Positions 287-12,855 of a stretch of DNA of 54,910 nucleotides are shown here, in pieces (position 1 is the first letter of the stretch; each line of letters begins with the position of its first letter). Position numbers and translations under genes: made by a program. The notes under the pieces were generated by a model. The model saw nothing but the letters and a program-made list of their open reading frames with translations, had not been told where the DNA came from and made no database searches. Source of the DNA: Chloroflexota bacterium (GTDB taxonomy: Bacteria > Chloroflexota > Anaerolineae > UBA1429); contig JAAYAW010000020.1 of the NCBI GenBank assembly GCA_012719135.1, positions 1 through 54,910 on the forward strand, in the 5' to 3' direction.

Positions 287-1318
287 ATGCGAATTGCCCT
301 GGATGCCATGGGCAGCGACCATGCCCCCGGCGTGGACGTGCGCGGCGCCGTGCGCGCTGCCCGGCGGTTTGGATATGAGATCACACTTGTCGGCCGGGAG
401 CCGGAGATTCGCGCTACACTGGCGCAGGAGAACACCGAGGGCCTTGCCCTCTCGGTCGTGAACGCGTCCCAGGTCGTCGACATGGCCGAACACCCGGCAC
501 AGGCCGTGCGCGCCAAGAAGGACGCTTCGATCGTGGTGGCCATGGGCCTGATCCGCGATGGCGCGGCGGACGCACTCGTTTCAGCGGGGAACTCCGGCGG
601 CGTGCTCGCCGCATCGCTGGCAAGCGCGGGTCGCATCGGCCGTATTCAGGGCGTGCAGCGCCCGGCTATCTCCACCATCCTTCCGACTCTGCAGGGGCCA
701 GTGTTCATGCTGGATATTGGCGCGAACACGGACTGCAAACCGGAGTGGTTGGTCCAGTTCGCGATCATGGGAGCGGCCTATGCTGAGCACGTCCTCCGCA
801 TCGAGCGCCCGCGAGTCGCGCTCCTCTCTAATGGTGAGGAAAAGACCAAAGGCAGCGCCCTGGTGCAGGAGACCCACGAGCTTCTGGCTCGATTCTGTCC
901 CGACCTGAACCTGATCGGCAACGCTGAGGGCAAAGATATCACGCAGGGCCTTGCGGACGTGATTGTCACCGATGGCTTTACGGGAAATGTCGCCGTCAAG
1001 ACGGCCGAGGGCACGGCGAGCATGCTGCTGAAGGTTCTGAGCACAGAGATCAAGTCACGCCCGCTGGCCATGTTGGGCGGTCTGCTGGCCAAACCAGCCT
1101 TTCGCGCCGTTCGCAAACGGTTGGACTACCGCGAGTACGGCGGCGGCCTTCTCCTCGGCGTCAATGGTATCGTGGTCATTGCGCACGGACGCTCCGATGA
1201 ACTGGCGATCGAGAACGCCATCGGCGTAGCGGGCGCGGCCCACATGGCCAGTATCGTGCCCCTCATCGCCGAGCGCATCTCAGCCGTGCCGTCGGCTGAG
1301 GCCGCCGACGCCGGATGA
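287..1318 (+). CDS. plsX: phosphate acyltransferase PlsX
   Basis: PlsX makes acyl-phosphate from acyl-ACP and phosphate, feeding PlsY at the first step of phosphatidic acid synthesis; it is a peripheral membrane enzyme. The 343-residue protein has the family length. It opens with the diagnostic MRIALDAMGSDHAPG and has the SAGNSGG and DIGAN motifs of the isocitrate-dehydrogenase-like fold. A GAGGAG ribosome site precedes the ATG. Unusually it is not next to fabD/fabH/acpP; the next gene is a NERD-like membrane protein. It is functionally linked to the fatty-acid-kinase-like fusion at 9830, which would also yield acyl-phosphate. Confidence 0.95.
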   Translation: MRIALDAMGSDHAPGVDVRGAVRAARRFGYEITLVGREPEIRATLAQENTEGLALSVVNASQVVDMAEHPAQAVRAKKDASIVVAMGLIRDGAADALVSAGNSGGVLAASLASAGRIGRIQGVQRPAISTILPTLQGPVFMLDIGANTDCKPEWLVQFAIMGAAYAEHVLRIERPRVALLSNGEEKTKGSALVQETHELLARFCPDLNLIGNAEGKDITQGLADVIVTDGFTGNVAVKTAEGTASMLLKVLSTEIKSRPLAMLGGLLAKPAFRAVRKRLDYREYGGGLLLGVNGIVVIAHGRSDELAIENAIGVAGAAHMASIVPLIAERISAVPSAEAADAG

Positions 1319-9449: not shown

Positions 9450-9829
9450 TTCAGCGCTGGCCTTACCAGCTGGCCACTCGAGGGTAACTGAAGGTCGAGC
9501 CAGGAGCCGTTCGGCGGGTGATGCTGCACAGGCCAGATAGAGACGGTCCGCATCTTGGCCGTTGCTCCGCCGCGCTCGCCCTGGAGAAGCGTTGCTTCGT
9601 TCTGTCCAGCCCTCTCTAGCCGTACATGCGCCGCCGCCAGATTCATCCATCCATCTGTTCCTCAGGCTCCACACGGAAGCCGTGCTCTGTCACGCCTCCC
9701 GATCCGAGCCGCAGGCCACATTTGTGGTATAATCTTGTTATAGTAACAAAATTGTGAGGGGTCCGGTCACAGGTCTGGATCTCTTTTTGTGCCTGAGGGG
9801 ACCATCGTTATTGCCAGTGGAGAGCAAGT
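9450..9829 (+). other. 380-base intergenic region upstream of the Fak-like fusion
   Basis: No credible gene is seen. The left 270 bases have no recognised RNA or repeat. The right end holds the extended -10 promoter and palindrome described separately, followed by a leader of about 90 bases. Confidence 0.6.
9725..9749 (+). promoter_or_regulatory. extended -10 promoter with palindromic operator candidate
   Basis: TGGTATAAT (TGn at 9725-9727, TATAAT 9728-9733) is an extended -10 element; no good -35 lies 17 bp upstream. One base later the perfect inverted repeat TTGTTA-TAG-TAACAA (9735-9749) covers the expected start site, the usual place for a repressor operator. The regulator is not identified. 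Confidence 0.65.
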
Positions 9830-11656
9830 ATGGAACTGGAACGTTCGGCGCAGCGGATTGACGGAACGGATATCATCAACTGGTTTCGTTCAGGTTCCCA
9901 GGAGGTACAGCGCAGCCGTAGGCGACTGAACGCCATCAACGTATTCCCGGTTGCCGACGGAGATACCGGCACGAACCTGTCGACCACGCTGCGAGCGATG
10001 GTGGACCGTCCAACACAAGACCGGTCCTTCTCGGCCACCTTGCGTGCGCTCTCTGACCTGGGTCTATCCCATGCACGCGGCAACTCGGGCATCCTGTTCG
10101 CGACCTACATCAGCGGCATCGCGGCCGAGGGCGCGGCGCATGATTCGGTAACCGTTGAGGAGTTCGCCCAAATCGCGAACCGCGCGGTCAGCCACCTGTA
10201 CCATGCGGTGGAGCGCCCCGTTGAAGGGACGATGATCACCGTGATCCGCGAGTGGGCCAGCACCCTGGCGCGCCATGCCAGCCGCTTCCCCAGCTTTGGC
10301 GAACTGATGGCGGAAGGATACAGCGCCGCAGGGGCCGCACTGCAGAGAACGGCGAGCCAACTGGAAGTGCTCCGCAGAAACAACGTGGTGGATGCGGGCG
10401 CCGAGGGATTCGTGCGGTTCCTGGAGGGCATCAACCGGGCCCTATCGGGGGATGCCGAACGGGTGGACGCCGAGCCTGTACCGGAGCTGACCATCGCCCC
10501 CGAGAGCGAGATGGCGTCCGGATACCGTTACTGCACGGAGGTCCTGATAGAGACCCCGGAAGGGGCGCCTCTCCCGGACGAGATCGCGCTGGAGAGCACC
10601 CTCCAGAAGCAGTTGCATGGCTATGGGGATTCCCTCATCGTCAGTGCCCGGGCGTCCAGGACTCGTGTACACATCCATACCGATACGCCTGCGCGAGTAG
10701 TCGAGGATCTCACCGCCTACGGCTCTGTCCTCGAACAAAAGGTCGATGACATGCGGCTTCAGGCGAGCGTGCGGGAGCACCGGCTACATCCTGTCGGGCT
10801 GTTGACGGATTCGATCGCCGATCTTCCCGAGACCTTCAAGCTCGAGAACCAGATCCACACGCTCCCCCTCGGTTTGCTCCTCGATGGGACAGCCTATCTG
10901 GACAAGATAACGATCCAGCCGGGACAGCTAACGGAGGCGATCTCCCGCTCCGAAGCCTATCCGACGAGCTCGCTACCCGAGCCGGGACGCGTTCGGGCCT
11001 TCCTGGAAGGCCTAATCGATCTGTATGAATCGCTCATCTTTGTCACGGTTTCGTCCCAGATGAGTGGCACAAACCGGATCATCACGCAGGCGCTTCAGGA
11101 TATCGATCTTCAGGGCAAAAAGGTAGCCATCGTCGATAGCCTGACGAACTCGGGCGCGGAGGGTCTCCTGGTTCAATCGGCAGCGAATCTCCTCAATGAA
11201 GGGGCGAGCCACGATGAGGTCGTTGCGCGCCTTGGAGCACTGATCCCCAGGGCCAGGATATACGTGTGCCTGGACACGCTCGAGTACGCCGTGCGCTCGG
11301 GCAGGGTGCCCAATACAGTCGGCAAGCTAGGGATCAAGCTCGGGCTGCGTCCGATCATGAGTGTAGATCCCCATGGGCGCGGCACTGCATTCGGCGCCGC
11401 GTTCAGCCAGGGCGGCCTGACGAAAAAGATCCGCCGCCTCGTACGCCGGCACCTGGCCACAACCGGCGTTCTACGCTACGCCATCGTTCATGTCGGAAAC
11501 CCGGCACTGGCAGCCCAGTATGCCGCAGAGCTCGGAGAGATGATCGGGCGCCAACCGGAGTACATCACGGAGGTCTCTGCCGTGATCGGAATCCATTCGG
11601 GTCCAGGAAGCGTCGCGGTCTGTCTCATCGAAGGAGAGGAGGCTTCCGGTGCTTGA
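9830..11656 (+). CDS. DhaL-DegV fusion, FakA-FakB-like fatty acid kinase
   Basis: Residues about 12-205 are a DhaL/DAK2 kinase domain: [13 protein letters not shown] (38-49) for nucleotide/Mg binding and ARGNSG (82-87). Residues 225-315 match the middle region of FakA (VHIHTDTP at 280-287, then a KVDDM turn). Residues 320-608 are a complete DegV/FakB lipid-binding domain: [41 protein letters not shown] and a final GIHSGPG. In Firmicutes FakA phosphorylates a fatty acid held by a separate FakB; here both halves are one 608-residue chain, with DegV where FakA normally has its own C-terminal domain. The product would be acyl-phosphate. The ATG has a GGAG site. Substrate and activity are inferred. 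Confidence 0.85.
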
Positions 11657-12419
11657 TGCAGCCATCCTGATCGCCCTGTACTTTGCCTTCTTCTTCGTGC
11701 TGGGCACGTTCCTGCACAACAACTCCATCGTTGACATCGGCTGGGGCCTGGGGTTTGTGGTTGTTGCCGCCTACGTGATGCTCACGACGCAACCCACTTC
11801 AACCGCCATGTGTGCCGTAGCGCTCCTGGTAGCCATCTGGGGGCTGCGGCTCTTTTACCATCTCCTGCGCCGCAACCTGGGCAAACCGGAGGACTTTCGG
11901 TATGCCAACTGGCGCAAGGAATGGGGCAAGTGGGTCATCCCGAGGGCCTTCTTCCAGGTCTACATGCTGCAAGCCCTGTTCATGTACGTGGTGGCGCTGC
12001 CCATCACACTGACGGGCCAAGCCAGCGGATCGGGCGCTTCCAGTGCCCCGCTGTTTGTTTCTGGCGTTGTGGTGTGGATCACGGGATTCCTGTTCGAGGC
12101 CGTTGGCGATTCCCAGCTTCGACGGTTCGTCGCCCAGCCAGCGAATCGGGGCCAACTGATGACGTCGGGGCTTTGGCGGTACACACGCCATCCCAACTAC
12201 TTTGGAGAAGCGCTGATCTGGTGGGGCCTCTTCCTGGTATCGTTGAGTGGCGGGGCCTCGTGGCTGGGACTCGTTAGCCCCGTCGTGATCACCTATCTGC
12301 TTCGTTTTGTCTCGGGCGTGCCGATGCTGGAGCGCTCCATGAGCCGCAAGCCAGGCTGGGAGAGCTATGCTCAGAGAACCAGCATCTTTGTGCCCTGGTT
12401 CCCTAAGGAAGGCAACTGA
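11649..12419 (+). CDS. DUF1295 steroid-reductase-like membrane protein
   Basis: A 256-residue polytopic protein of the DUF1295 family, related to 3-oxo-5-alpha-steroid 4-dehydrogenases and isoprenylcysteine methyltransferases. About six or seven hydrophobic helices are visible. The conserved C-terminal motif is [15 protein letters not shown] (near residue 174), which in relatives contacts NADPH or SAM. The GTG start lies inside the last codons of the Fak-like fusion (8-base overlap) behind GGAGAGGAGG, so translation is coupled. Pairing with a DUF2177 gene recalls clusters tied to cyclopropane or furan fatty acids, which suggests a lipid substrate. Confidence 0.85.
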
Positions 12420-12438
12420 TGGACGTGGGAGGTTAGCC

Positions 12439-12855
12439 GTGTCTCAGATTTTGACCCTCGAGAATATCCGCAACTATGCCATCGCGCTGGCGATTTTCTT
12501 GGCCATCGACATGGTCTGGCTGAATGTAATCGCCAAGTCGCTCTACGCCCGTCATCTGGGCTACCTGATGACCTCGCGCGTCAACATTGCGGCCGCCTTT
12601 ATCTTCTACATGCTGTTCATCCTCGGCATTGTGGTGTTCGTGGTGAATCCCGCCCTGATGGCGCAAAGCTGGCAGATGGCCCTGGGCCTGGGCGTGCTGT
12701 TTGGTCTGGTATGCTATGCCACCTACGACCTGACCAACCTCGCCACTGTGCGTGATTGGCCCGCAGTCATCACTATCATCGATCTGGTCTGGGGCATGTT
12801 TGTCTCAGGCATCACTTCGTTGCTCAGCTACGTGGCGATCCGCCTGCTTGGGTGA
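12439..12855 (+). CDS. DUF2177 family membrane protein
   Basis: A 138-residue protein with four hydrophobic helices, starting VSQILTLENIRNYAIALAIF. DUF2177 features visible are the FLAIDMVWLNVIAKSLYARHLGYLM stretch near the N-terminus and CYATYDLTNLATVRDW in the third helix region. The GTG at 12439 follows a GGGAGG site and a 19-base gap from the DUF1295 gene. Function is unknown. The family is often found with DUF1295 and lipid-modification genes, consistent with this operon. Confidence 0.85.
   Translation: MSQILTLENIRNYAIALAIFLAIDMVWLNVIAKSLYARHLGYLMTSRVNIAAAFIFYMLFILGIVVFVVNPALMAQSWQMALGLGVLFGLVCYATYDLTNLATVRDWPAVITIIDLVWGMFVSGITSLLSYVAIRLLG

Follow-up and report, generated by a model that had tools for sequence, protein, structure and literature searches.

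A DhaL/FakA-middle/DegV fusion protein encoded beside DUF1295 in a Chloroflexota genome: a probable single-chain fatty acid kinase

The window analysed here is a stretch of 54,910 nucleotides from a Chloroflexota bacterium (class Anaerolineae, contig JAAYAW010000020.1), in which a single gene encodes a DhaL domain, a FakA-like middle domain and a DegV domain in one chain and is followed by genes for a DUF1295 and a DUF2177 membrane protein (Table 1). The reading frame of the fusion runs without interruption from its ATG to its stop codon over exactly the interval listed, and the existence of full-length homologues in dozens of genomes rules out both an assembly artefact and a chance read-through; a frameshift joining two genes is rejected on the same grounds. 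The first 8 bases of the DUF1295 gene are also the last 8 of the fusion gene. The DUF2177 gene probably starts further in than the first base of its listed frame. A promoter scan found no site upstream of the fusion. The palindrome TTGTTATAGTAACAA, which adjoins a possible -10 element, occurs once in the window and in none of 100 shuffles, and is a possible operator. A plsX gene is also found within the window.

Table 1. Coordinates of features in the window
Feature	Position	Strand	Basis
plsX	287-1318		
Possible -10 TATAAT (9729-9734) and adjoining palindrome TTGTTATAGTAACAA (9735-9749)	9729-9749	+	Read from sequence
Single-chain DhaL/FakA-middle/DegV protein, 608 aa	9830-11656	+	ORF, Pfam, AlphaFold2 model
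DhaL (Dak2) nucleotide-binding domain, residues 40-201	9947-10432	+	Pfam 2.6e-32; FakA_N structure match
FakA-like middle domain (FakA-like_M, PF21645), residues 232-312	10523-10765	+	Pfam 4.1e-20
DegV/FakB-type fatty-acid carrier domain (PF02645), residues 322-601	10793-11632	+	Pfam 1.3e-55
R492 codon, corresponding to FakB Arg170/173, on which catalysis depends	11303-11305	+	Arg in 83/83 fusions
F525 codon, position of FakB Arg202/205	11402-11404	+	Phe/Leu in all fusions
DUF1295 integral-membrane protein, steroid/sterol-reductase fold (predicted)	11649-12419	+	PF06966 1.7e-74
DUF2177 small predicted membrane protein	12367-12855	+	PF09945 1e-43

Pfam reports only Dak2, FakA-like_M and DegV for the window protein. 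The DegV match is complete, spanning positions 2-279 of a profile of 280; FakA-like_C (PF13684) gave no match at E-values up to 0.001, and no DhaK (Dak1) domain was found. The original prediction of a FakA-like kinase fused to a FakB-like carrier, with a complete DegV domain in place of FakA's own C-terminal domain, is confirmed by these profiles (a search for Dak2 and PF02645 in one chain recovers both), by the intact frame and by the full-length homologues, and is well supported by the predicted folds and conserved catalytic residues. Among curated models the protein scores 208 bits against TIGR00762 (cut-off 99.7) and misses the FakA equivalog cut-off of 975, at 137 bits; no curated NCBIfam model spans the entire fusion, members of which match YloV and DegV separately. 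An AlphaFold2 model, for which 46 natural fusions served as input, has a mean pLDDT of 92 and a pTM of 0.90. Its N-terminal part resembles FakA_N of Staphylococcus aureus (Z about 33, 1.6-1.8 A). Lipid-binding DegV/FakB structures align in full with its C-terminal part (Z 30-35), whose resemblance to DhaK is limited to the broad fold (Z about 15), and the whole model gave no rigid superposition on FakA 7w7h. The linker between the middle domain and DegV has a constant length of 13-14 residues across 77 fusions. DhaL domains are common to dihydroxyacetone kinases, and weak NCBIfam matches to that family could be taken to mean that the fusion is a kinase of that kind, acting on a small molecule or another lipid and not on fatty acids; this is very unlikely given a FakA middle domain with its Cys-His-His triad, a FakB-type DegV domain, the missing Dak1 match and closest structures that are FakA_N and FakB.

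The active-site residues of a fatty acid kinase are retained in both halves. Both the DhaL motif D43/D45/N49 and the middle-domain triad C235, H281 and H283 are invariant in 46 fusions, the catalytic triad of S. aureus FakA being Cys240, His282 and His284 (PMC9136124). In an alignment numbered on S. aureus FakB2, all 83 fusions retain the residues equivalent to FakB Ser93 and the catalytic Arg170. The docking position is different: FakB2 Arg202 (Arg205 in FakB1) is the residue that FakB needs in order to dock on FakA and the membrane (PMC9136124, PMC10146087), and the position is Arg in 21 of 22 free FakBs, whereas the 83 fusions have Phe (59) or Leu (24) and never Arg. The FakB His266 equivalent is Asn or Ser in most fusions, although the window protein keeps His. 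Loss of the docking arginine fits what a covalently tethered carrier would predict; the hydrophobic residue found there could also mean that membrane contact is altered rather than abolished.

Taken from conserved residues and predicted folds, formation of acyl-phosphate by the fusion is very probable. In the mechanism that we propose, the DegV half would hold one fatty acid in a FakB-type pocket, and the DhaL half together with the Cys-His-His middle domain would transfer the gamma-phosphate of ATP to the fatty-acid carboxyl to give acyl-phosphate, either within the chain or across a dimer. Tethering of the carrier would make the arginine wedge with which a free FakB docks on FakA superfluous. 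Kinase and carrier are in the same chain, so that the carrier of the fusions is not a free-standing, exchangeable FakB.

The C-terminal domain of FakA is itself a relative of FakB without a lipid pocket (PMC9136124), and the window's genome encodes a 564-residue FakA adjoining a FakB, with four free DegV genes in total. Both facts would suit a protein whose DegV half is only a FakA_C-like docking or structural domain, with separate FakBs bringing the fatty acids for phosphorylation. We regard this as unlikely, since the DegV half is full length and has kept the FakB lipid and catalytic residues in every one of the 83 fusions, fusions score no higher against a FakA_C profile than free FakBs do, and a FakA-sized kinase gene is already there in every carrier checked (a second Dak2 ORF of FakA length in 12/12 fusion-bearing genomes). 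With such a gene in the window's genome and in all 12 of these carriers, and with four free DegV genes in the former, the fusion supplements the ordinary Fak system and does not replace it. The real difference from FakA is that an intact carrier occupies the FakA_C position. A tree of DhaL and middle regions separates 28 fusions from 30 FakAs by one fully supported branch, 29 of the FakAs being from the window's class and the split not being datable from this tree. The idea of the fusion as an intermediate towards FakA_C was also considered and is unsupported by the profile scores.

It had further been predicted that a fused carrier might lose carrier exchange and so change how exogenous or recycled fatty acids enter lipid synthesis with PlsX/PlsY. 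That consequence is left unsupported: the separate FakA and free DegVs are kept, and the genome, which is 99% complete, yielded no PlsY (PF02660), an absence that counts against our preferred explanation. The operon partners point instead to a dedicated role with the DUF1295 reductase.

The window DUF1295 protein matches the Steroid_dh profile (1.8e-8; 35 bits against a cut-off of 22.6), and its model (pLDDT 94.5) is closest to sterol reductase 4quv (Z 15.5) and the steroid 5-alpha-reductase PbSRD5A 7c83 (Z 15.1), at 16-18% sequence identity, with a weaker match to the methyltransferase ICMT (Z 12.5). It would probably use NAD(P)H to reduce a C=C bond in a lipid; in the literature, neither DUF1295 nor DUF2177 was found to have an assigned reaction. 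Among the 73 loci with enough downstream sequence to test linkage, 69 have DUF1295 downstream of the fusion on the same strand (64 of these directly) and 49 have DUF2177. The scan that found these loci used the fusion sequence alone, and the DUF1295 linkage is thus not a selection effect. Functional coupling of the fusion to DUF1295 is likely. The linkage also bears on whether the fusion is simply a single-chain duplicate of the usual system for taking up exogenous fatty acids, with DUF1295 an incidental neighbour: the catalytic modules are indeed the same as in Fak, but a linkage that spans many Firmicutes families, and the occurrence elsewhere of unfused DegV-DUF1295 pairs, render this improbable.

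Several variations on this gene order were observed. An unfused DegV gene directly adjoins DUF1295 in two other genomes of the host class (L141, 536-2229; L142, 1501-3682), and in a third it is a 4HBT thioesterase gene that does so (L139, 1501-2786). In four Halobacteroidaceae-type loci a gene of about 120 codons lies between fusion and DUF1295 (L054, 7009-7365; L059, 8258-8617; L079, 8292-8651; L101, 5127-5495); a LysM domain was confirmed in the first, which the other three resemble.

A scan of one genome per species gave 263 candidate loci related to the query region, and the best 80 of these, which were read, come nearly all from Firmicutes or Mollicutes, the few with other names being possibly misbinned. 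In the host phylum the window's genome is the only one of 400 in which the fusion was found, and none of the 14 further genomes of the host order has it, among them one of the same genus (89% complete). A tree of 83 fusions places the window copy among Clostridia; its nearest relatives are [Clostridium] fimetarium, Mobilitalea and metagenome-assembled genomes, and the sets of 9 to 11 rows that enclose it are starred. This nesting, together with the absence of the fusion from the rest of the 400 genomes, indicates probable lateral acquisition. The window DUF1295 likewise comes closest to those of the same Clostridia cassettes, at 61% identity, and shares 45-48% with the nearest DUF1295s from its own class, and the entire three-gene cassette was probably acquired in this way. 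Base composition reveals no recent foreign DNA, the GC3 of the cassette resembling that of its neighbours, and we infer that the transfer is old enough for composition to have adjusted. In an empty-site comparison, relatives retain the upstream TrmA-type gene and not the window neighbourhood, the same-genus genome gave no match, and no insertion site could be read.

Genes for heliorhodopsin, photolyase or regulators combining a helix-turn-helix (HTH) with a B12-binding domain lie near 14 of the 80 cassettes as a raw count; for the other 66, no light gene falls within the stretch covered, which we count against a role in light. Heliorhodopsin (PF18761) is matched at E-values of 1e-82 to 1e-103 in the four proteins tested, and a fifth (L094) by sequence only. 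In L043 and L045, which are close relatives of the window copy, its gene is inside or adjoining the cassette, with a place between fusion and DUF1295 in Mobilitalea sibirica and immediately after DUF2177 in [Clostridium] fimetarium; in L052 and L097 it is near the cassette (coordinates: L043, 9347-10159; L045, 8152-8931; L052, 86-865; L097, 145-906; L094, 13054-13884). Regulators with HTH and B12-binding domains were Pfam-confirmed near six cassettes, of MerR type in L078 and HTH_3 type in L043, L083, L089, L096 and L110; more were assigned by sequence, and photolyases lie near other cassettes. Glutathione peroxidase (L046, 9345-9827, confirmed; L047, 5443-5916, similar in sequence) and the methionine sulfoxide reductase MsrA-MsrB (L050, 2960-3928) are also encoded near cassettes. 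A lipid-dependent sensor or regulator that had lost turnover is another reading, favoured by the regulator and heliorhodopsin genes that some relatives carry nearby; conservation of all the nucleotide, triad and Arg residues argues against this reading, to which we give very little credence. Since no photolyase, heliorhodopsin or B12-HTH gene was found in the window, and no photolyase in its genome, a role in light is weakest for the window copy.

Published work touches on the same families. In Chlamydomonas, DUF1295, DUF2177, DUF1365 and two cyclopropane fatty acid synthases need SAK1 for their induction by singlet oxygen (PMC4067076). Bulzu et al. linked heliorhodopsins to photolyases and glutathione peroxidase, in a main text that does not mention DegV, DUF1295 or DUF2177 (PMC8612252).

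The best explanation as a whole, to which we assign a probability of roughly 0.65, is that the fusion is a dedicated single-chain fatty acid kinase with a DUF1295 partner and a role in light or oxidative stress. The kinase would work with the co-encoded DUF1295 membrane reductase and the small DUF2177 membrane protein, in a pathway that seems to be part of a light or oxidative-stress response salvaging or remodelling a particular acyl chain. The DUF1295 linkage and light-gene neighbours suggest dedicated repair or remodelling of membrane lipids and not ordinary fatty-acid uptake, although photo-oxidative lipid salvage as its purpose is doubtful. More speculatively, anaerobic and facultative Gram-positive bacteria may possess a light or oxidative-stress lipid pathway in which kinase and DUF1295 reduce and re-activate damaged or modified acyl chains and return them to phospholipid, alongside heliorhodopsin or B12-binding regulators in some species, and which has spread laterally beyond Firmicutes, as in the window. 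The fusion unites naturally, in one piece, an enzyme that otherwise has two components and whose active site, once assembled, has proved difficult to define; a structure of the fusion could reveal how the carrier comes together with DhaL and the Cys-His-His triad. Its tight linkage to DUF1295, and sometimes to heliorhodopsin, offers a handle on three families whose functions are poorly understood or unsettled: DUF1295, DUF2177 and heliorhodopsin.

The architecture itself is already annotated in Listeria. L. monocytogenes lmo0590 and L. innocua WP_207577344.1, named as DAK2/DegV or DegV family proteins, have the same architecture at about 35% identity, and the gene order in L. innocua is photolyase, DUF2177, fusion, DUF1295. 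lmo0590 has been listed as a "DAK2/DegV domain-containing protein" and stands with the photolyase lmo0588 in a mutant-screen table (PMC3091722). No biochemical or functional study of the architecture was found in the literature, and within the literature searched the DUF1295 cassette and docking-residue findings appear new, as does the proximity of light genes, which we count with them. With FakA (YloV) the fusion shares the DhaL domain, the middle domain with its Cys-His-His triad and the domain order, but FakA ends in FakA_C, which has no lipid tunnel and docks a separate FakB, whereas the fusion ends in an intact carrier and the fusions form a separate clade with full support. With FakB it shares the full-length fold and the equivalents of Ser93 and the catalytic Arg170/173, but its carrier is covalently joined to the kinase, Arg202/205 has become Phe or Leu, and His266 is mostly replaced. 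The DUF1295 partner, finally, has a predicted membrane reductase fold in common with the steroid 5-alpha-reductase and sterol reductase family (7c83, 4quv; Z 15).
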